Assembly (NCBI GenBank): GCA_016841675.1
Contig: JAENYQ010000034.1
Span: 1 to 34,400 of the forward strand
Source of the DNA: Desulfotomaculum sp.
GTDB lineage: Bacteria; Bacillota; Desulfotomaculia; Desulfotomaculales; Desulfallaceae
Direction of reading: 5' to 3'
DNA: 34,400 nt
The position numbers were made by a program, and so were the translations under genes. The notes under the pieces are model-generated. The model was not told the DNA's origin, ran no database searches, and was given only the letters and a program-made list of their open reading frames with translations. Shown here piece after piece: positions 5,596 through 27,850 of this stretch. How positions within the stretch are numbered: position 1 is the stretch's first letter; each line of letters begins with the position of its first letter.

Positions 5596-5670
5596 AGGGG
5601 AGTGGCTCAATGGTAGAGCAACGGTCTCCAAAACCGTAGGTTGCAGGTTCGAGCCCTGTCTCCCCTGCCA
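5596..5670 (+). tRNA. tRNA-Trp (anticodon CCA)
   Basis: A complete 75-nt cloverleaf can be drawn by eye. The acceptor stem is AGGGGAG (5596-5602) with CTCCCCT (5660-5666). The D arm carries GCTC...GAGC. The anticodon stem is ACGGT/ACCGT with loop CTCCAAA, so the anticodon is CCA (5628-5630) for tryptophan. The T stem GCAGG/CCTGT encloses TTCGAGC. G73 and an encoded CCA (5668-5670) end the gene. It has a strong promoter upstream. Its 3' part from 5626 onward is duplicated at 27804-27850, which marks it as the integration target of the mobile element. The gene remains intact after integration. Confidence 0.96.
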
Positions 5671-5672
5671 GA
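5626..5672. repeat. attL core: left copy of the 47-bp integration repeat
   Basis: This segment runs from the anticodon loop through the CCA end of tRNA-Trp plus two bases. It is identical over 47 bp to 27804-27850. The bases on either side differ (T versus A before it, T versus A after it). This is the usual signature of a tyrosine-recombinase element inserted in a tRNA 3' end. Confidence 0.95.
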
Positions 5673-5787: not shown

Positions 5788-5860
5788 AACCTATATAATA
5801 TACATAATATAAAAGGGTCTGTAATATTACAGACCCTGAGTTATGGTTCCTAAAATTAAG
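5788..5860. repeat. Palindromic repeat, copy A, downstream of the subtilase gene
   Basis: Contains a 24-bp perfect palindrome (5814-5837) centred on TGTAATATTACA. On the minus strand it is followed by TTTTATATT, so it can end transcription of the subtilase gene. The surrounding ~70 bp reappear in diverged form at 7152-7217 on the other side of the subtilase gene, with the shared order AACCTA, TACATAAT, AAAAG, TGTAATATTACAGACC, TGAGT, CTCCTAAA (TTCCTAAA here). Confidence 0.75.
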
Positions 5861-5895: not shown

Positions 5896-7053
5896 TTATT
5901 CAATCACTTTATAAATAAACAACTCGGGATTTGGTTCACCATATTTCCCAAAATAATGAGTAGCAATTTCAATATTAATAAAACCAGCACCTACTTCATG
6001 GGGTTTATAATTTGCTATTCCAATAGCCATATCCATTAAAATTTGCTTTATTATCAAAGGAAAGGGTTCCCCGAGGGGATATTTAACTATTCTAACATTA
6101 CCAAAATCCTTGTAATTTCCGACAAGTCTTTGTGAAGTAACACGTTCGTCAAATTTCATTGTTTGATCATGAGTATATATTTGAGCAAAACTTCTTGGCA
6201 TGGTGCCTTTATCTTTTTTATATTCATCTAACATATTTAATAAATAATGCATAATTAAACCAACAATACGAGAAACATGTGGTGTAGCTATGCTTGTTCC
6301 CGAAACTACAGTGTAACTAGGCCAATCTTCTTTTTTTACTTTTTCATAAAAGCCAATCCTTTTTTCAGCTTCCAATTGTATCTTATTTTTGGGGGTATCT
6401 GGTGGGTGAGTAGTAATTATATCAATACCTGGAGCAACAACAGTAGGACGATTAAAAATATCTGAAGTACATCCTCTAGAAGAAAAACGAGCAAGTAAGT
6501 TTCCATCTTTGGATGCTGCACCTACACTAAAAACCCATGGAGCTAAAGACCAAGGATTTAGAGTGTTTTCTTTAGGGCCAAAGTTACCTGCAGCAAAAAC
6601 AATTATTTTGTTATTTTCAGCTGCTATTCTTATTGCAATGTTAATTGGTTCTTCTGGATTGTATGGCATAGGGATTAAATCTTCGGAGGGACTTAGGCTT
6701 ATACTAACCACTACCGGTTCATGTGGTAATTTATTAAATAAATCTTCTAATGATTTTATAGTTCTAACATACAACTTATATATACCTTCATCGACGTACC
6801 ATATTGCTGAAATGCATTCAGCCTGAGCAAGTTTTAATAAATTTCTACCAAATATTGTTGCAGCAAATCCACTAATTAAATTTAAAATTGATACATTAAA
6901 ATCATCACCAACAAGACTTAACATTCCTAGTTGCCTAATTAGCTTTAAGGCTTCTTCTTTATTTTCTTTAGCTATAACTATTACTTTCCAATCATAATCA
7001 ATATTTTCAAGTATTTTTTCATGAAAATCATAAGGATTAAATTTTTCCTTCAT
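5896..7053 (-). CDS. Subtilase (S8)-like protein lacking a visible catalytic Asp and His
   Basis: A 385-residue protein with the C-terminal half of a subtilisin fold. The oxyanion-hole segment FAAGN (Asn157) and the nucleophile segment SGTSIATPHV (Ser254) are clear. Residues ~21-90 resemble an I9-type prodomain (ISGFAATI, then ISAIWYVDE). The stretch that should carry the catalytic Asp (DTG) and His (HGT) motifs is absent: the I9-like part runs almost directly into VVVSISLS, which corresponds to the strand after the missing region. There is no signal peptide, so it is probably cytoplasmic. It lies at the left end of the mobile element, is markedly more AT-rich than its neighbours, and is flanked by two copies of a palindromic repeat, which points to a late-acquired cargo gene. 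It may be a pseudo-protease, a regulatory or defence effector, or the product of an internal in-frame deletion. Confidence 0.8.
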   Translation of the reverse strand: MKEKFNPYDFHEKILENIDYDWKVIVIAKENKEEALKLIRQLGMLSLVGDDFNVSILNLISGFAATIFGRNLLKLAQAECISAIWYVDEGIYKLYVRTIKSLEDLFNKLPHEPVVVSISLSPSEDLIPMPYNPEEPINIAIRIAAENNKIIVFAAGNFGPKENTLNPWSLAPWVFSVGAASKDGNLLARFSSRGCTSDIFNRPTVVAPGIDIITTHPPDTPKNKIQLEAEKRIGFYEKVKKEDWPSYTVVSGTSIATPHVSRIVGLIMHYLLNMLDEYKKDKGTMPRSFAQIYTHDQTMKFDERVTSQRLVGNYKDFGNVRIVKYPLGEPFPLIIKQILMDMAIGIANYKPHEVGAGFINIEIATHYFGKYGEPNPELFIYKVIE

Positions 7054-7151: not shown

Positions 7152-7217
7152 AACCTAACAGTGTACATAATAAAAGAACCTGTAATATTACAGACCTGAG
7201 TGGTTGCTCCTAAACAA
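7152..7217. repeat. Palindromic repeat, copy B, upstream of the subtilase gene
   Basis: A diverged direct copy of 5788-5860. The central CTGTAATATTACAG palindrome is at 7180-7193. Together the two copies bracket the subtilase gene (5896-7053). Confidence 0.7.
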
Positions 7218-7430: not shown

Positions 7431-7832
7431 TCAATTCCTTGGTGAATGCCACCAAAGCATAAAAGCCAGTAGGGCAACAAAAGTGAGTAAACCAGCAACA
7501 AGCATTTGTTCCTCTGTATAGAAATAAAATGCAAACCCTGATATTAATGTCGCAACAGCGATAACATATTCGCGTATTGCAGGTGCAGGTTTTACAATGG
7601 GTTTACCGATATTTTCATCCCGTACGTGTTTTATAAACTTGTCTAATATATTAGCTGCATTTTGATTTAATAATTTTTCTGCATCTAAATACTTTCTAAA
7701 TGCTTCTATCTCTTGCTCAGTAGGTTGCCGTTCCTGCTCAGATACACACCTATCTATATACTTTTTAACAGACTCATCCAATAATTTCTCTTTAACAATT
7801 GCATATATTGGCTGATCTTTATAGTTCTCCAT
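7431..7832 (-). CDS. Hypothetical protein with two C-terminal membrane helices
   Basis: A 133-residue protein that I do not recognise. Residues 1-85 are charged and helical (DEKLL-type and QEIEAFRKYLDAEK segments). Two hydrophobic helices follow (about 88-106 and 109-127), separated by a short TEEQ turn, so it is probably a tail-anchored hairpin in the membrane. The stop of the DCD-family gene lies just 3 nt before its ATG, so the two are almost certainly co-transcribed and translationally coupled. Small membrane proteins in such positions of temperate phages are sometimes superinfection-exclusion factors; that is only a possibility here. Confidence 0.8.
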   Translation of the reverse strand: MENYKDQPIYAIVKEKLLDESVKKYIDRCVSEQERQPTEQEIEAFRKYLDAEKLLNQNAANILDKFIKHVRDENIGKPIVKPAPAIREYVIAVATLISGFAFYFYTEEQMLVAGLLTFVALLAFMLWWHSPRN

Positions 7833-7835
7833 ATG

Positions 7836-8525
7836 CTACCCGCACACCGATTTTTTTTTATAGTTGTCTACGATTTCATTAGCCGTGCTCTCAATTTGTT
7901 CCTTTAGAAATAACTGCAACCGTCCTAGGTCTTCATCTTCAACGCTGACCGTTTGAGATGTGGTTAAAAAATTTTTTATTTCACGATCTAAATAAAGCTT
8001 GGGAAGTCCAATCCCCTTTTCGCCCTGATATTTTGCATCCTCTTGCTCTGGATATGGCACCATGACCTTACCCGATAATGTGTAGAGTACGAGTTGACAT
8101 ACTCTTACACCAGGGATAAGCGTTACAGGAATGTTACCAAAATTATTAATTGCTAACGGAAGATTACCCTCATAACCAGGGTTTACATAAGATGATGCGT
8201 TTACTGAAATACCCATCCTTGCTAAAGTACTCCTGTTGTATACAACTCCTATAACACCCAATGGTAGCTTAATGTATTCCATAGCAGAACCAAGCACAAA
8301 CTTCCCCGGTTCAAGGATATATCCGTCATTGATTTCAACCTCTTTGTAGCACATTGCTATGTCATTAACAGGATTGATGGGAACATGGGAATCATTGCAA
8401 TAGCTTATTTTATCCCCAAGAGTAAGGTCAATTGATGCGGCATGGATATTGGCATCAAGCAAGGGGTCTAAGCCAAACTCTCCCTCTTCAATCATGCGTT
8501 TGAGTTCTTTATCACTTAGAACCAT
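7836..8525 (-). CDS. dCTP deaminase/dUTPase-family protein with altered active-site residues
   Basis: A 229-residue member of the DCD/dUTPase superfamily, which normally deaminates dCTP or hydrolyses dUTP. Family landmarks are ASIDLTLGD, RSTLARMGI (residues 98-106), NPGYEGNLPLAINNFG (115-130), PGVRVCQLV and the C-terminal EDAKY. Compared from memory with E. coli Dcd, the catalytic Glu of VLEFYNSG is Ala125 and the Asp of IDPGW is Asn115. The enzyme may therefore be inactive or have a changed activity. A ~35-residue helical extension follows the usual C-terminus. The ATG at 8523-8525 has an AAGGGG site. In staphylococcal phages dUTPases also act as signals that derepress satellite islands, so a regulatory role is conceivable but unproven. 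Confidence 0.87.
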   Translation of the reverse strand: MVLSDKELKRMIEEGEFGLDPLLDANIHAASIDLTLGDKISYCNDSHVPINPVNDIAMCYKEVEINDGYILEPGKFVLGSAMEYIKLPLGVIGVVYNRSTLARMGISVNASSYVNPGYEGNLPLAINNFGNIPVTLIPGVRVCQLVLYTLSGKVMVPYPEQEDAKYQGEKGIGLPKLYLDREIKNFLTTSQTVSVEDEDLGRLQLFLKEQIESTANEIVDNYKKKSVCG

Positions 8526-11948: not shown

Positions 11949-14900
11949 TTATTTTGCACTTTTTAGCGTATCCGCCAGGCCGCCATAAACCTTCTCATAA
12001 TGCTCGATGGCCCGCTTCAAATCCAGTATCTGTTCCCGGTCCAGTGTTTTGATAAACGCCACTTTTTCCTCATCATTCAAGCCGTATAGCGGGTGTTTAG
12101 TTTCCAACGATTGCTGCAGACCCTTGCCGGTACCGCCCAGGGTGATGTATTCGGTCAGATACCGCTTGGTCGCTTCTTTATCCTTGAAATATAGCGCCTG
12201 CTTGAAATTGTACAGGGCGTTGCTCTTAGGTGAAATGAAGGAGCCCGTACTTTGCTTGTTTATCTTCTTTAGGTACCGTTGTTTTTCGTCCAACACATTG
12301 TAATGAGCTGTCAATTCCGGGTCTGCCGTATAAGTAACAAAGTCCCGGAAGGTTTTCTCGTAGGGCTTGGACGGCAACTTCATTACACCTCGATACTCGT
12401 TCTCTAAACCCAGGCTTTGTGCAATATGCAAGCCCCGGTCCCTAATCTGGCCCGGGCTGAAGATGTCCGGGAATATCTTTTTACCGGTAGCTATCTCTGC
12501 CGGTGCCTTGATAAACGGCGTAACACCTTGCACCAGTTTATTAACTGGCCTTCTAGCCATCTCTGCGGCCACTTCTTTGACCGACTTTTTGCCGTTAAGG
12601 ATGTCATGCACCTGGTTAATGGTTCCGGCATCCACACCGAACCAGTCAACGAAGTCCTGTAGGGCACCTAGCCGGCTGAAGTAGAGTATTTTACCATCCT
12701 CGTCCTGCCCAAAGATAATATGCGGCCGGTTGCGTTCTTCCTCAGATAAACCCTTCTCTAATTCCGGGAAACGGGTATTATTCCACAGTGCCAGCATTAC
12801 CCACAGGGCTGATGCCTTTACCGCCAGCATCCCAACCCGGTAGGCTATCATGGGGGACTTGACTGCAACTCCGGTGAGCAGCTTACGGCCAACGGTATGG
12901 GCCAGTTCACCATCCCGGGCGGCGTTGATCATTAACTGCTTGTACCGCCGGAAGTTAACCTCGTTCCAGCTCCAGAAGGGGATCAGGTGCTCTCGTAGTG
13001 CCTGCCCCAAAACGCCCACCTGGTCGTATGCGCCAAGTAGCTCATTGGATAGCTTAAACGCCCGGTCCTTGGTGTCGTCCAGTGACATTACTTCATCCGG
13101 GATGCTAGCCCCGAAGTTTTTAGGCTTGCCCTTGTTGTCCTTCATCTGCTCCAGGTAGTCAAGGTAAGCCGCATAGCGCAAGATAGCTTCCCGAAAGTCT
13201 GTGGATAGCCGGGCCGATTTCCAATACCCCTGCCAGACTTTTAGGGGCATCTCCAGCAGGCTGCCCTTTTTCTCCTGCAACTGAACAAACATCTTTAGCT
13301 TATTGACGTCCCCCAGCTCCTGCGCTTGTAAGAGAGTCTGCATGCCGCCGCGCTCGAACCAGTCCTTCATATCCGGCGTCATACTCTTATCACCAGTAAA
13401 TACCTGGTACAGCTCCTGTATTGCCCGGGGTGTTTTCTTGAACGTGGTTGGGTTGCCGGCAAAGGCCGCGTCAGCGTCGCCGGTAATGTTCCGGAAATTG
13501 TATCTAAACCAGCGCCGCGGGCTAACCAATGTCCAGACTTTCCATTTCCGTTGTAACCACTTGGAAGCCTGGGAAATGGGGCTCTCTGCTGACAGTGTCG
13601 TCAGGTTATCCAGGGTTGCCGCCACCTCCTCCTTTATAACAAACTCTCTAAAGCGTTGCCCTTTGGCCAGTACCTGACGAAGGTCCTTAGCTTTTACACC
13701 CAGTTCTTCCAGGGCACCGGTATAAAGTTTCTCGGCCACTGAAGCAGGCACGCTATCGCTAAAGTAGAACACGTTACCCTCCCGGGGCTGCCAGGTGGTG
13801 TAACCTTCGGGGATATGCTTCTCCCAATCCCTACCGTGCTGTTTTTTCAGCTTTTCCACGATGTTGTAATTCTTGTCGACAGACTTAATGGTTTTGGCTA
13901 CCTCGGTGTTATAGAGCATGTCAGCCATGACCTGGCTTTCTGCCTGCAAGTAATCCGTGTTTATGTCCAGTTCACTACCCTCACGTTGCCTGAGAAAGCC
14001 GCTTTTTGTCGGCGTACTTAACTTTTTACCGGTTCCCAATGCCATGCGCTTTAGGTTAGCAAATTCCAGCACCTGGTGCCGATAATAATCCTCTTTGGTG
14101 AGCTTACTGCTGGCGTCATAGCCGATGTCCTGCATAGCCTTAATGTAGTCGTCCCGGATAGCAGTCCATACCCTTTTACGGGCATCCACGGCCCCGGCCA
14201 CGTCCTGATGCTTATCCAGTTCCTCATTAACCCGCTGCAGGTCCTGTTCCAGCGTTTCCGGGGTATAACCAAAGGGCAACTTGCGGCCGGCTTCGGCTTC
14301 CTGTTTCAAGTCTCTCAGGATTACAGCACGGGTAAATAATTCGTGCTTCGCTGGGTCCTGCTTGACGGTCAAGCCCTGAATAATGCGAAGTGCCCGGTCA
14401 CCGGCCACGTCCCGCTGTTTCTTCAATTTGAGTAGGTCAAAGCGCAGTCGTGAAAACTCACCTGTGCGCGGCAGGTGTTCATATTCCCGGGTGGCAAGGT
14501 TAATTAGCCTGGTTAATCCCTGTTTGGCCCGGTCAATTATGGGTTCTTTGGAAACGCCCCTGGATGCTTGCCAACGTTCTTCAACCTTCGGATCAACGGA
14601 CGCAAGCTTGTCCGCCTGTTTGGCATCCGGACCCCGGCCGGTAATCTTCACCGACATTCCTACATTTGGCTTTACCTCTCCTATTTCCTCGTCAACGGCC
14701 TGGCCGAGTTCGCTTTCCACTTGGGACAATGAATGAACTGACGCCTTAGCTTTTTCCCTGTGGGGTTCAGTCTTGACAACCCTCCGCCCAAGTTTATACT
14801 GACTGCCTTTCTCATTCTTCACTGTCAGCATAGCCCGGTCGGAAGCGTCAACAACGGTTAGTTTTGCATTGCCAGGCCCAATAACGGTGTCGCCAACTTG

Positions 14901-16640
14901 GATGTCGGCCTGCAATGGGGCGGGTGGTTGGGTTTTGGTTTCCGGCTGTACCTGTACCTTTTTAGGGGCCTGCGCCTTTTTATTCACAATGCCCGGCAGT
15001 TTTTCCGGTACCGGCGCTGGGGTTGTCTCACTCATCATAACCACGCTACGGCTATCCTGACGGTTCACGTTCTGCAAAACCGGCTGTTGCCTTACGGCCT
15101 GCTCCACTTCCGCCGCAACTTCGCGGGTTGCTTCCTCGACCACCTGACGACCGGCAGGGTCAGACGCGATATTATCAAGATCCTCGTCAGTAAGCTGATC
15201 GCCGGGGGTGCCTACTTTTTCGCCCACCCGGGCGCGGATCATGTCCGTAACTGTCCCGGCCCCGCCCATGCCAAGACCAAATAGACCACCAACGGCCATA
15301 GATTGCTTCATTGCATCATCGAAGGCAACCGGATCACCCATAGCCTGCCGCTGTATTACTTCCTGGTAACCTTCCTCACCGGCTTCAGTCAATGCACCAG
15401 CACCAACCCTACCGGCACCCATAGCCACTTTACCAGCGGTTGTCGCTGCCTTAAACGGCATCGGGGCGAACGCTGCGGCAAGCTGTACAGCATCCAATCC
15501 GCCAAGAGCCAGGTTCTTCCTGAATACCTCATTGGCCGCCTGTTCCGCTTTGACCGGGTCGCCATCACGGGCTAACATTTCTTCGTATGCGCCACCCGCT
15601 TCTAATGCCGATTCAATAGGCCGGGATAATGCGGCACCACCAACAGCGGAAATAACGGCCTTCTTAAAGGGGCTAAGTGCTGTTTTAGCAACGGCAGCAC
15701 CAGTACCTTTGTAACCTACAAGCATAGCCGGAATAAGCATAGCTGAAATAGGCGCGGCCTGCGCTACTGTGGTAGAGTAAAAATCAGGATCAAGGAATGA
15801 TTTCCAGGTAATCGGTTTATTGTATTGAGTTTCATAGCCCTGGCTTATATTCTTACCAGTTCTTGAAAGTTTTTCACCTAATTCCTCTTTGCCCTGCCAT
15901 TTGGCCGCTGCACCAATCAAGCCTACCCCCATGCCGGTACCAGCACGCATAGAAGCGCCGGTCTGCTCTAAGAAGTTAGGATCAATCGCATTAGGCTGAG
16001 TTGCCCCCTGATACATTTCCCGGCCACCGAGCGCGACACCGGCACCACCGATAACCTTAGCCGGCATGGGAACATTTTTAAGCGCATTTGCCGCTGTACT
16101 GCCTGCAGACTTCAGCCCACCAATGGTGTATTTAGCCGCCTTACCAGCGCCCAGCGCAGCCAATAATGCACCGGCCACGTCACCAGCACCGGCGGCAAAC
16201 TTATCCACTCTATTCTGCGGAGTTAGGGCTTCGGGCACAGCGCCACCGGTAAACGTGCTTAACGCCCCCTGCGAGAATAGTCCGGCAGGCCGGATTAGGT
16301 CGTCTATGGCCCGCATTAACGGAGTAGACCCTGATTTAGTAGCAGGAGTTTGCGCCTGCGGAGTTGGAATAATAGGCCGATGTAACCACGATTTCGAAGG
16401 TTGTGCTACCGGGGCCTGTTGTACCGGGGTAGTCTTTGCCGGGGTTGGTCCGGCTGCAACCATTGGATTCCATGCCTGATTAATAGGGTTCTGCGCTTTA
16501 GCGGCCTTGGTTGCCGCTTGAAGGGCTTTTGCTGACTCGATAATTTTATGTGCTTCTTGCACCTTTTTAATTTGCTGTTCCTGACGGTAATCTTCCTCGC
16601 GCCGATATTGGCCGGTTTTGAAGTCAAAGACGTAACTCAT
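11949..16640 (-). CDS. Large phage polyvalent/internal virion-type protein (LPD38-like C-terminal part)
   Basis: A 1563-residue protein with the look of a phage ejection or internal virion protein. The N-terminal third begins with a charged coiled coil (residues ~10-50), then a Pro/Gln linker, then long Gly/Ala-rich amphipathic stretches, including the EEGYQEVIQRQ segment common in large polyvalent phage proteins. Around residue 580-610 a small SH3/KOW-like module occurs (IQVGDTVIGPGNAKLTVVD). From ~690 it is helical and charged. From about 1040 (SPRRWFRYNFRNITGD) through ~1225 (LIPFWSWNEVNFRRYKQ) it matches what I know as LPD38-type domains. Family members are thought to be packaged and injected with phage DNA. 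It is uninterrupted, which argues against simple decay. It closes the late operon, 18 bp after the 379-aa gene. Confidence 0.8.
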   Translation of the reverse strand: MSYVFDFKTGQYRREEDYRQEQQIKKVQEAHKIIESAKALQAATKAAKAQNPINQAWNPMVAAGPTPAKTTPVQQAPVAQPSKSWLHRPIIPTPQAQTPATKSGSTPLMRAIDDLIRPAGLFSQGALSTFTGGAVPEALTPQNRVDKFAAGAGDVAGALLAALGAGKAAKYTIGGLKSAGSTAANALKNVPMPAKVIGGAGVALGGREMYQGATQPNAIDPNFLEQTGASMRAGTGMGVGLIGAAAKWQGKEELGEKLSRTGKNISQGYETQYNKPITWKSFLDPDFYSTTVAQAAPISAMLIPAMLVGYKGTGAAVAKTALSPFKKAVISAVGGAALSRPIESALEAGGAYEEMLARDGDPVKAEQAANEVFRKNLALGGLDAVQLAAAFAPMPFKAATTAGKVAMGAGRVGAGALTEAGEEGYQEVIQRQAMGDPVAFDDAMKQSMAVGGLFGLGMGGAGTVTDMIRARVGEKVGTPGDQLTDEDLDNIASDPAGRQVVEEATREVAAEVEQAVRQQPVLQNVNRQDSRSVVMMSETTPAPVPEKLPGIVNKKAQAPKKVQVQPETKTQPPAPLQADIQVGDTVIGPGNAKLTVVDASDRAMLTVKNEKGSQYKLGRRVVKTEPHREKAKASVHSLSQVESELGQAVDEEIGEVKPNVGMSVKITGRGPDAKQADKLASVDPKVEERWQASRGVSKEPIIDRAKQGLTRLINLATREYEHLPRTGEFSRLRFDLLKLKKQRDVAGDRALRIIQGLTVKQDPAKHELFTRAVILRDLKQEAEAGRKLPFGYTPETLEQDLQRVNEELDKHQDVAGAVDARKRVWTAIRDDYIKAMQDIGYDASSKLTKEDYYRHQVLEFANLKRMALGTGKKLSTPTKSGFLRQREGSELDINTDYLQAESQVMADMLYNTEVAKTIKSVDKNYNIVEKLKKQHGRDWEKHIPEGYTTWQPREGNVFYFSDSVPASVAEKLYTGALEELGVKAKDLRQVLAKGQRFREFVIKEEVAATLDNLTTLSAESPISQASKWLQRKWKVWTLVSPRRWFRYNFRNITGDADAAFAGNPTTFKKTPRAIQELYQVFTGDKSMTPDMKDWFERGGMQTLLQAQELGDVNKLKMFVQLQEKKGSLLEMPLKVWQGYWKSARLSTDFREAILRYAAYLDYLEQMKDNKGKPKNFGASIPDEVMSLDDTKDRAFKLSNELLGAYDQVGVLGQALREHLIPFWSWNEVNFRRYKQLMINAARDGELAHTVGRKLLTGVAVKSPMIAYRVGMLAVKASALWVMLALWNNTRFPELEKGLSEEERNRPHIIFGQDEDGKILYFSRLGALQDFVDWFGVDAGTINQVHDILNGKKSVKEVAAEMARRPVNKLVQGVTPFIKAPAEIATGKKIFPDIFSPGQIRDRGLHIAQSLGLENEYRGVMKLPSKPYEKTFRDFVTYTADPELTAHYNVLDEKQRYLKKINKQSTGSFISPKSNALYNFKQALYFKDKEATKRYLTEYITLGGTGKGLQQSLETKHPLYGLNDEEKVAFIKTLDREQILDLKRAIEHYEKVYGGLADTLKSAK

Positions 16641-25376: not shown

Positions 25377-26420
25377 TTGGACATTTGTTTTTTTGATAAG
25401 CAAAAAATCTCAGTAACAGTGGATGTATTCGAAAAGGATAATTCAGGGGATGAATATTTGGGCACAGATCACCTAAAGTATTTGCCCTTGGGTACAATGA
25501 CACTTGACTTTATAGAAACAGATTTTAATAATTTCGTTTCTTTTCAGGGATTTATCACAATATGGGGTTTGAGTGGGTTTATTGCGTACTCTGAAAATGC
25601 TAAAAATGTGGTTGGCACCGAAAGGGATTTTAAGGAGGACGAATATACTCGAATTCTTCACGAGATACACGAAGAAGTAAAAGACAAGATTATATCGGCA
25701 CAGGATGAAATAAAGCATGTTGCGTATACATGCCTTGACTATAATGGCCCGGACTGGTCGAGGGGGTTAACATCAAAACAGCGGCATTACATAATGATTG
25801 AAACATGGAATGGAAGCAATTTTGAAACACGTGATTACAATAATAGAGTTACAATTAAGTATTATACGGAGTTAAGTAAGGATTTGCAAAAAAAAGTTTT
25901 CTACAGTGAAAATTCGTTATCTGAAGGCGATTTAGCTAAACTAATTTTAAATGATAACCCGGTTTTTGTAGAGGTTTATGGTAGTGAAGATATTGCATCT
26001 CTTTGTCTAATTGAAATTAAAGAAATGCTTGCCAATGGAACTATGATTAAAAAATGCAAGAACTGTAACAGATACTTTTTGAACAGCGGGAAAAAAGAAT
26101 ACTGTGATAGAACGGTTTTTGTTGATTCTAACGGAACACCCCGGACATGTCAGATGATTGGACCTAAAAAAGCATTCCTTGATAATCCGGCAAAAAAAGT
26201 GTATTCCAAAGCCTATAGAACACTCCACAACAGGCTGAAAAAAGGGGGCAAGTATAGAGTTAACAAGGATGAACTAGATTTTTGGAGAGCTGCGGCCAAG
26301 GCGAAGCTTGAGGAAGTAGAAAAGGGGGAGATAACCCTAGAAGAATTCAGCCAGTGGCTTGCAGATACGATAAAGAGCTTCAGGGAATGGATAAAGGAGG
26401 GGCTACAATGGCAAGCGTAA
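25377..26420 (+). CDS. DUF6076-like protein with Cys cluster
   Basis: A protein of about 347 residues resembling the DUF6076 group, which has no known function. The C-terminal part holds the signature: KKCKNCNRYFLNSGKKEYCDR, then RTCQMIGPKKAF, a probable zinc knuckle, followed by a basic helical segment (KAYRTLHNRLKKGG) and an acidic tail. The N-terminal 200 residues are strand-rich. I prefer the TTG at 25377-25379 because AGGAGG lies 8 nt upstream and a promoter with its -10 near 25310 would begin after the earlier ATG at 25302. The longer starts (25302, 25284) remain possible and would add 25 or 31 residues. It overlaps the integrase start by 13 nt, so the two are one operon. Confidence 0.75.
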   Translation: MDICFFDKQKISVTVDVFEKDNSGDEYLGTDHLKYLPLGTMTLDFIETDFNNFVSFQGFITIWGLSGFIAYSENAKNVVGTERDFKEDEYTRILHEIHEEVKDKIISAQDEIKHVAYTCLDYNGPDWSRGLTSKQRHYIMIETWNGSNFETRDYNNRVTIKYYTELSKDLQKKVFYSENSLSEGDLAKLILNDNPVFVEVYGSEDIASLCLIEIKEMLANGTMIKKCKNCNRYFLNSGKKEYCDRTVFVDSNGTPRTCQMIGPKKAFLDNPAKKVYSKAYRTLHNRLKKGGKYRVNKDELDFWRAAAKAKLEEVEKGEITLEEFSQWLADTIKSFREWIKEGLQWQA

Positions 26421-27646
26421 AGCACCTGGGCGGGAACAAATACAAGGTCACAATATCAGCGGGGATTGATGGAGCGGGGAACCGCAAGCGAATTTATAAA
26501 ACCATAGAAGCAAAATCAGAAGCCGCGGCATTGAAAAAAGCCAACGTACTAGAGGCCGAAGTGGTAAAGGGCGAATATATTGAACCGACACGTTTCACCC
26601 TCGCTGACTATGTGGAGAAATGGAAAAAGGACGCTGAAAGGAAACTGGCCCCTAAGACATACTTCCGCTATTGTGAAATGCTTGAAAGCCGGATTATCCC
26701 AAGTTTAGGTAATATCAAACTGGAAAAACTTAACCCGATACTGATTGAAAACTTTTACAATGAAATGCGTGAACCCCAAAAAAGAGAAGTAACAAAAAAA
26801 GACGGAACTAAAAAAGTAACCACCTATAACCTATCGGAACAAACTATTAAACACCATCACCGGCTTATCAGTGCCATACTCCAAACGGCCTTCAAGAAAG
26901 GGCTTATCAAGGAAAACCCATGCGCCCGGGTTGATGCTCCGAAGGCCAAAAAGAAGGAATTAACCATTTACACCGAAGAACAAATATCTGCACTTATTGA
27001 AGCCCTGGAAGATGCAGAGCTAAAGTTTAAAACCTGCGTACATATTGCTTTAGCTGGCGGGCTTCGCCTGGGGGAAATATTAGGCTTAGAGTGGCCCGAT
27101 GTGGATTATAAAAATCATGCAATTACGATCAGCCGGACAAGTCAATATCTGCCTGGCAAGGGTGTTTTCACGAAAGACCCAAAGAATGAAACTAGCAAAC
27201 GCATTATTTCACTCCCGCCGGCTGTAATAAACTTAATGGCGCAACTAGAAAAGGAACAAACCGACAAAGAGAATGAATTAGCCAATAAGTGGCAAGGAAG
27301 TAATAGACTATTCACAACTGAAACCGGTGGCCCGATGCATACATATACCCCCACTAAATGGCTCAACGCCTTCCTAAAGAAAAAAGGGCTGCCCCCACTT
27401 CCTTTTCATGGCCTGAGACATACAAGTGCCAGTTACCTTATTGCAGCCGGTCAGGACGTTGTAACGGTAGCTAAAAGGCTCGGGCACTCAAATTCAAACA
27501 CAACATTAAGTATATATGCCCATAGCTTCAAAAAGCGGGACGAGGAAGCAGCATCCAAGATGGCCGGGTTATATGCCCCCAAGTTGGAGGAAGTCAAAGA
27601 GGAAATAGTTAAAGAAGAAAAAGTACAACTAAGGCTGGTTAAATAA
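26408..27646 (+). CDS. int: Tyrosine recombinase (integrase) of the element
   Basis: A 412-residue phage-type integrase. The N-terminal AP2-like arm-binding domain (VKHLGGNKYKVTISAGIDGAGNRKR) is followed by a SAM-like core-binding domain (residues ~62-165) and the catalytic domain. Catalytic residues visible are Arg220 (GGLRLGE), the likely Lys near 259, His334-x-x-Arg337 (HGLRH), His360 (LGHSNSN) and Tyr370 (SIYAH). The ATG at 26408-26410 with AAAGGAGG is the start; the longer frame to 26354 lies in the DUF6076-like gene. It lies about 160 bp from attR. All residues are intact, so integration and excision should be possible. It is read outward towards attR. Confidence 0.95.
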   Translation: MASVKHLGGNKYKVTISAGIDGAGNRKRIYKTIEAKSEAAALKKANVLEAEVVKGEYIEPTRFTLADYVEKWKKDAERKLAPKTYFRYCEMLESRIIPSLGNIKLEKLNPILIENFYNEMREPQKREVTKKDGTKKVTTYNLSEQTIKHHHRLISAILQTAFKKGLIKENPCARVDAPKAKKKELTIYTEEQISALIEALEDAELKFKTCVHIALAGGLRLGEILGLEWPDVDYKNHAITISRTSQYLPGKGVFTKDPKNETSKRIISLPPAVINLMAQLEKEQTDKENELANKWQGSNRLFTTETGGPMHTYTPTKWLNAFLKKKGLPPLPFHGLRHTSASYLIAAGQDVVTVAKRLGHSNSNTTLSIYAHSFKKRDEEAASKMAGLYAPKLEEVKEEIVKEEKVQLRLVK

Positions 27647-27803: not shown

Positions 27804-27850
27804 CTCCAAAACCGTAGGTTGCAGGTTCGAGCCCTGTCTCCCCTGCCAGA
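27804..27850. repeat. attR core: right copy of the 47-bp integration repeat
   Basis: Identical to 5626-5672. It carries the anticodon-loop to CCA end of tRNA-Trp without the 5' half, so it is not a functional tRNA. Confidence 0.95.

Follow-up and report, generated by a model that had tools for sequence, protein, structure and literature searches.

The closest described relatives of the protein considered here are the dCTP deaminases (Dcd) and bifunctional dCTP deaminase-dUTPases of E. coli, M. tuberculosis (2qxx) and B. halodurans (4xjc), together with laboratory mutants of Dcd in which the catalytic Glu was replaced by Ala (E138A/E145A). Such mutants have been crystallised with dCTP (1xs4), dTTP (2j4q) and an alpha,beta-imido nucleotide (2hxd), and the titles of these PDB entries show that loss of the Glu does not abolish nucleotide binding in Dcd. 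A protein of the dUTPase superfamily can also serve as a signal between mobile elements: according to PMC5593958, this is the case for staphylococcal phage Dut and SaPI Stl, where Dut usually needs its normal activity and binds the repressor. Panoptes is presented as an immune system in PMC12657218. For a dCTP-deaminase pseudoenzyme, or a Dcd-like protein with a membrane partner in defence, our literature search found no description, which is no proof of absence from print since most subscription papers lay outside the search; the passages searched in PMC10733785 gave no details of active-site residues.

The window, meaning the whole 34,400-nt stretch of a Desulfotomaculum sp. contig (JAENYQ010000034.1) that was analysed, carries a gene for a DCD-family protein, P0001, in which the residues normally responsible for catalysis are replaced. 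The gene and its relevant parts are:

7836 to 8525, minus strand: P0001, a catalytically degenerate DCD-family protein of 229 aa with an ATG start (profile and structure searches)
8217 to 8234, minus strand: R98-S-T-L-A-R103, a kept motif corresponding to RSSLAR of E. coli (alignments)
8181 to 8183, minus strand: codon of Asn115, in the place of the conserved Asp of the D-P-G motif (sequence and profile alignments)
8151 to 8153, minus strand: codon of Ala125, in the place of the catalytic Glu, E. coli Glu138 (pairs with the Ala of PDB 1xs4, E138A)
8028 to 8033, minus strand: K165-Y166, the kept, conserved C-terminal KY motif (alignments)
7842 to 7937, minus strand: C-terminal helix, residues 197-228, beyond the canonical Dcd fold (alignments and AlphaFold2 model)

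The preliminary description of this DNA had assigned P0001 to the DCD/dUTPase family and had placed Asn115 and Ala125 at the conserved Asp and the catalytic Glu, and both assignments were borne out. P0001 scored well above the cut-offs of Pfam DCD (E 8e-36, 123.9 bits against 27) and NCBIfam dCTP_deam (144 bits against 92.8). A phmmer search of PDB sequences aligned it to Dcd of M. tuberculosis, B. halodurans and E. coli, with Asn115 paired to the Asp of an I-D-P-G motif. Ala125 occupies the place of the catalytic Glu because it pairs with the Ala of 1xs4, whose title reads 'E138A mutant enzyme in complex with dCTP'. These residue assignments come from sequence and profile alignments that agree with one another. 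The AlphaFold2 model, built on the family alignment (pLDDT 80.3), shows the Dcd fold followed by the long C-terminal helix 197-228. The nearest PDB structures to this model are dCTP deaminases (Foldseek, E down to 5e-17), and VIA-align superposed it on Dcd structures with Z of 22-24 over 175-184 residues at an rmsd of 2.2-2.6. P0001 thus has Ala125 where an active dCTP deaminase has its catalytic Glu, and Asn115 where an active dUTPase or bifunctional Dcd-Dut has the conserved Asp of D-P-G / I-D-S-D. Judged by these replacements, P0001 is presumably inactive as an enzyme. A separate dUTPase-like gene with the Asp is present in the host.

Relatives of P0001 were collected in several steps. Its best match among named phages was a Helicobacter trogontum prophage protein annotated as dCTP deaminase, with Asn and Ile at the two sites; a protein of the Alkalihalophilus pseudofirmus plasmid pBpOF4-01 also has Asn and Ile, with the same C-terminal extension and a two-helix membrane gene downstream. 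Viral contigs yielded no relative when P0001 alone was the query and yielded just the Helicobacter locus with a two-row alignment of P0001 and the Helicobacter prophage protein; the family became visible only once the pBpOF4-01 copy joined the query. With the Helicobacter and plasmid proteins added, 17 loci came from the genome collection, of which L022 proved to be an ordinary Dcd, and 10 came from the viral collection, the Helicobacter prophage among them once more. A sample of 398 genomes from the class of G500, a carrier of the operon, held the pseudoenzyme in 6 genomes, two of which were already known; G865 and G892 from this sample are newly found carriers of the type seen in the window. 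Matches at E <= 1e-10 in the window's own class were confined to 1 of 113 genomes, its own, and a phylum sample gave matches at E <= 1e-15 in 20 of 398 genomes, with the pseudo-DCD family present in the window's genome only. A viral scan with the window-type alignment found two loci, L075 and L076, both with Asp and Glu. Among named phages, the best matches to the L021 pseudoenzyme were Dcd-like proteins of halophages, two unannotated gut phages and one Pseudomonas phage.

After removal of duplicates the family comprised 18 members, 15 of a main group and 3 of the window type. Left out were copies and refetches (L001 and L034 of the window; L010, L026-L029, L055, L058, L061, L065-L070, L077-L079, L081-L084), the broken copies L031, L032 and L033, Helicobacter L003 with its copies L009, L030 and L064 (Asn for the Asp, Ile for the Glu), gut phage L008 (Asn and Gly, respectively) and L080 (G616, 107.9 bits). 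L024 was counted even though its DCD gene is without its first part. Two of the family's genes are on record as 'dcd, dCTP deaminase'.

The residue pattern of P0001 proved to be that of the family. The column of the catalytic Glu holds A, V, I or L in 18/18 members, and a search of this column for another acidic residue found none in any of them; the column of the conserved Asp holds Asn in 17 and Thr in one. The motif N-P-G-Y-x-G is conserved across the family, and alignments show that the C-terminal extension is common to it. The Glu was retained in all 20 Dcd-like loci (19 genomes) of the 398-genome phylum sample, a control that matches the family profile at 60 to 134 bits and, because of this span, represents the superfamily and not one orthologous group. 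The losses go beyond chance, as they are common to the whole family and absent from all 20 control loci. Among the canonical rows of the same alignment the Glu is present in 19/19 and the Asp in just 14/19, so the Asp position is not diagnostic by itself. The preliminary description had also stated that the substrate-binding motifs are kept, which is correct for P0001 and the window-type proteins (R98-S-T-L-A-R103 and K165-Y166) and has to be limited to that subgroup, because R-S-S-x-x-R is altered in 15 of the 18. In E. coli Dcd, R-S-S-x-x-R is the phosphate-binding motif. The 3 window-type proteins retain its Ser and second Arg, the 15 main-group proteins have other residues there, and because of this loss the main-group ligand may not be a dNTP.

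In the tree, the pseudoenzyme side was split from the 19 canonical rows with support of 98/99. The viral proteins L075 and L076 still have Asp and Glu and yet group with the pseudoenzymes, and for this reason the tree does not demonstrate a single loss of the Glu; nor does it resolve whether the window-type, Helicobacter, gut-phage and L075/L076 rows belong to a single clade. When held out, P0001 scored 167 bits against the profile of the family and 165 bits against that of the canonical proteins. Against a profile of L072 and L073 it reached 171 bits, the first score after those two rows themselves, and was followed by main-group rows at 155 to 120 bits among the best 14 rows.

Other DCD-like genes were met in these searches. 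Those of a Shinella plasmid (L011, 5953-6594) and a Bradyrhizobium plasmid (L012, 4995-5609) have Gln at the Asp place and keep the Glu; both overlap a gene whose product has an H-E-x-x-H stretch, and the Shinella gene is close to multiubiquitin and ThiF genes. A Rhizobium etli plasmid (L013, 4496-5525) carries two DCD-like genes that overlap; neither has Glu at the catalytic place in our alignment, possibly another case of catalytic loss.

Directly downstream of P0001 lies a gene for a small putative membrane protein, P0002:

7431 to 7832, minus strand: P0002, 133 aa, with three soluble and then two membrane helices predicted (structure model); starts 3 nt past the DCD stop
7524 to 7583, minus strand: first predicted membrane helix of P0002, residues 84-103 (model; below a simple hydropathy threshold)
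7446 to 7514, minus strand: second predicted membrane helix of P0002, residues 107-129 (model and hydropathy)

The coupling to a small membrane protein gene that had been read from the window was therefore confirmed by the 3-nt spacing and the two C-terminal membrane helices predicted, and P0001 combines the two features by which we recognise the pseudo-DCD/2TM family, namely a Glu column without an acidic residue and, directly downstream, a small membrane gene. The P0002 model (pLDDT 82.5, pTM 0.49) has three helices and then two of membrane length. A gene directly adjoins the pseudoenzyme gene downstream in 18/18 members, with a gap of -23 to +12 nt and a product of 114-149 aa of the same plan. 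A simple hydropathy scan of the nine sequences of alignment A6 marked two membrane stretches in five and one in four, P0002 included. The Helicobacter member, which also is without the Glu, had no such membrane gene that we could find. A profile of the main-group partner matched 4 of the 398 genomes of the G500 class, all among the 6 pseudoenzyme carriers, and none of the 398 had this partner without the pseudoenzyme; the two window-type genomes fell below its threshold. With P0002 held out, its score to the main-group profile was weak (10.3 bits, the best of 200 shuffles being 6.8), and it scored 18.6 bits against a partner profile of L072/L073; it was the best ORF of the window against both. 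Because held-out homology is weak and the partner is fast-evolving, the assignment of P0002 draws on its position, size and architecture no less than on its sequence.

Most main-group partners share a V-N-x-E-x-W loop between the membrane helices (alignment A10), with Thr for Asn in the window type. Nothing credible in the PDB matched the membrane-protein profile (best E 0.025), Foldseek with the membrane-protein model returned nothing at E <= 0.001, and named phages held no match to the L021 membrane protein. Neither P0001 nor P0002 matched a PADLOC-DB 2.0 model at E <= 0.01, and the pseudoenzyme relatives that were tried had no PADLOC match either; of the partners, that of L021 (8686-9039) alone gave one, a weak match of its C-terminal part to CorA (E 0.0032), and a CorA-like pore in the partner would be a guess. 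In L061 (8549-10562), two transposase-like ORFs interrupt the membrane gene and the DCD-like gene stays open. A DUF1653 gene comes next after the pair in 9 of the 18 members and is absent from the window. In the literature covered, one paper mentions DUF1653.

The pair in the window sits within an integrated element, which is delimited by the following features:

5626 to 5672, plus strand: left 47-bp attachment-site repeat, overlapping the 3' part of tRNA-Trp (5596-5670) (repeat search)
26354 to 27646, plus strand: integrase of the element, at the end opposite the DCD/membrane pair (family match)
27804 to 27850, plus strand: right 47-bp attachment-site repeat, identical to the left (repeat search)

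Positions 5626-27850 thus form a 22.2-kb element integrated in tRNA-Trp and bounded by identical 47-bp repeats, and the end opposite the integrase, near which the pair lies, is a usual place for cargo. Besides the integrase, its genes include excisionase-like, repressor-like, primase, VapE-like helicase, second helicase and RusA-like genes. The element may be a phage remnant or satellite, because none of its proteins scanned against PHROGs matched terminase, portal, capsid or tail families. A subtilase-family peptidase gene (5896-7053, minus strand; Pfam 9e-21, PADLOC 'subtilase' 1e-7) adjoins the left attachment site and is flanked by near-identical 27-nt repeats with a palindrome (5809-5835 and 7170-7196). 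A fifth of the element is taken up by a gene for a 1563-aa protein (11949-16640, minus strand) with no Pfam or NCBIfam match and a weak PHROG match.

Elsewhere, the pair is carried by prophages, a plasmid and gene islands of Bacillota, and this recurrence suggests a sensor and membrane-effector system that has not been described. Five records of the Halalkalibacter group are about 99% identical over about 5-9 kb around the operon, and the A. pseudofirmus plasmid has the same stretch in pieces, which points to horizontal transfer. The pseudoenzyme is under purifying selection, with dN/dS of 0.10 for L057/L062 (dN 0.06, dS 0.59) and 0.06 for L072/L073 (dN 0.12, dS 1.9, near saturation). For P0001 itself, no orthologue close enough for such an estimate was found.

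We tentatively favour, at a little under even probability, a reading of P0001 and P0002 as a nucleotide-binding or regulatory pseudoenzyme that controls a membrane effector, probably in an anti-phage or inter-phage capacity. A defence or inter-phage role, favoured by mobile carriage, sporadic occurrence and neighbours, is to our judgement almost as probable as not. The narrower proposal, that this is an undescribed anti-phage or inter-phage system in which the dCTP-deaminase pseudoenzyme is a receptor for phage-altered pyrimidine nucleotides (e.g. dUTP, modified dCTP/dTTP) and acts as the gate of a two-helix membrane effector, DUF1653 being a third component in some cases, is possible but doubtful. 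In the reading that we favour, P0001 and P0002 form one operon, in which a DCD-fold pseudoenzyme, presumably without deamination or nucleotide hydrolysis, is joined with a putative small membrane effector of two helices. In the most likely mechanism the pseudoenzyme, which like its relatives is presumably trimeric, would bind a pyrimidine deoxynucleotide or a phage product via the retained phosphate-binding residues, and its C-terminal helix would dock on the soluble helices of P0002. If the ligand changed while a phage was infecting the cell, through shifted dNTP pools, dUTP or modified dCTP or dTTP, the membrane protein might then be freed or assembled, and would perturb the membrane and halt the infecting or competing phage. 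Nucleotide binding by P0001 is plausible, favoured for the window type by the kept phosphate motif and the nucleotide-bound Glu-to-Ala Dcd entries; contact between P0001 and P0002, an effect on the membrane and an anti-phage role are putative. Several observations speak against this reading: neither window protein nor the pseudoenzymes tried matched a PADLOC model, the defence neighbours come from loci picked by hand, the main group has lost part of the phosphate-binding motif, the Helicobacter member has no such membrane gene, the held-out homology of P0002 is weak, and in L024 and L032 a broken pseudoenzyme gene stands beside an intact membrane gene.

The strongest alternative is that the pair belongs to prophage biology and not to immunity, with an antiholin- or holin-like membrane protein that modulates lysis, or one that modulates lysogeny, and a pseudoenzyme that reports nucleotide state and so sets the timing of lysis. 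In prophages L017, L018, L056, L057, L060 and L061 the operon adjoins holin or endolysin genes, and two short membrane helices would suit a small lysis protein. However, the operon is without lysis neighbours on pBpOF4-01, in the Halalkalibacter group and in three further loci: L021 has it flanked by a groEL-like gene and, about 1 kb off, Avs2, with a specificity-subunit-like fragment between; in L019 an HNH gene that resembles type IV restriction enzymes is about 1.5 kb off and an integrase-like gene is in the region (read by eye); and in L023 an rlmH-like gene (read by eye) precedes it. In prophage L020 it is near an integrase, with an amidase further on. These loci were chosen by hand, and the proximity to defence genes is given without a background rate. 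Nor was a lysis gene recognised among the scanned proteins of the window's element, and we consider this alternative unlikely.

Two small, translationally coupled genes on mobile elements would also fit a toxin-antitoxin pair, with the membrane protein as toxin and the DCD-like protein as an antitoxin that acts by binding and has no part in sensing. The partner does evolve faster than the pseudoenzyme in the same pair of loci (L057/L062; dN 0.16, dS 0.40, against a pseudoenzyme dN of 0.06). A strict antitoxin should, however, forbid what is seen in two loci: in L032 the DCD-like gene is frameshifted, possibly an error of the draft assembly, and in L024 it lacks its first part, and the membrane gene is intact in both. 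A toxin-antitoxin pair is accordingly quite improbable.

We regard it as more improbable still that the protein is an enzyme with a rebuilt active site, using another acidic residue for catalysis or acting on another substrate. Acidic positions specific to the family do exist: position 64 (18/18 members), Glu97 adjoining Arg98 (14/15 of the main group) and position 169 near the C-terminal KY motif (3/3 window-type proteins). Against this, the catalytic column is without an acidic residue throughout, and P0001 has Asn at 97. Ordinary decay of a former Dcd beside an unrelated neighbour would account for the broken copies L031, L032 and L033 and the lost catalytic residues, but is very improbable, being largely contradicted by the family-wide N-P-G-Y-x-G, the low dN/dS and the constant operon structure.

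If the pseudoenzymes are indeed receptors that control a membrane effector, they would represent a metabolic enzyme that has become a sensor connected to the membrane. This would be a testable example of how an enzyme evolves into a sensor, with possible intermediates, as the phosphate-binding motif is kept in the window type and lost in the main group. The pair would then be a candidate defence module on prophages, a plasmid and islands of Bacillota, and would give a context for DUF1653.

Compared with known systems, P0001 is like Dcd and the bifunctional dCTP deaminase-dUTPases in its fold (residues 1-180), in R-S-T-x-x-R and in KY, and differs from Dcd in that Glu and Asp are replaced, an extra C-terminal helix is present and, across the family, a membrane gene always comes next. 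It has the same Glu-to-Ala change as the E138A/E145A laboratory mutants; those were engineered, whereas the change in P0001 is natural and joined with Asp-to-Asn, and loss of the catalytic Glu is family-wide. The preliminary description had proposed an inactive sensor or regulator in parallel with dUTPase signalling between phages and islands. The sensor or regulator part agrees with the degenerate DCD fold, the coupled membrane gene, the purifying selection and the mobile carriage; the parallel with staphylococcal Dut and Stl was not upheld, as the pseudo-DCD is without catalytic residues and its conserved partner is a membrane protein, not a repressor. Panoptes is reportedly an immune system with a nucleotide-gated membrane effector. 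The logic proposed here would be similar, in that a nucleotide ligand controls a membrane effector; unlike Panoptes, the pseudo-DCD operon has no nucleotide-synthesising enzyme that we could see, and its presumed sensor is a pseudoenzyme of the DCD family.
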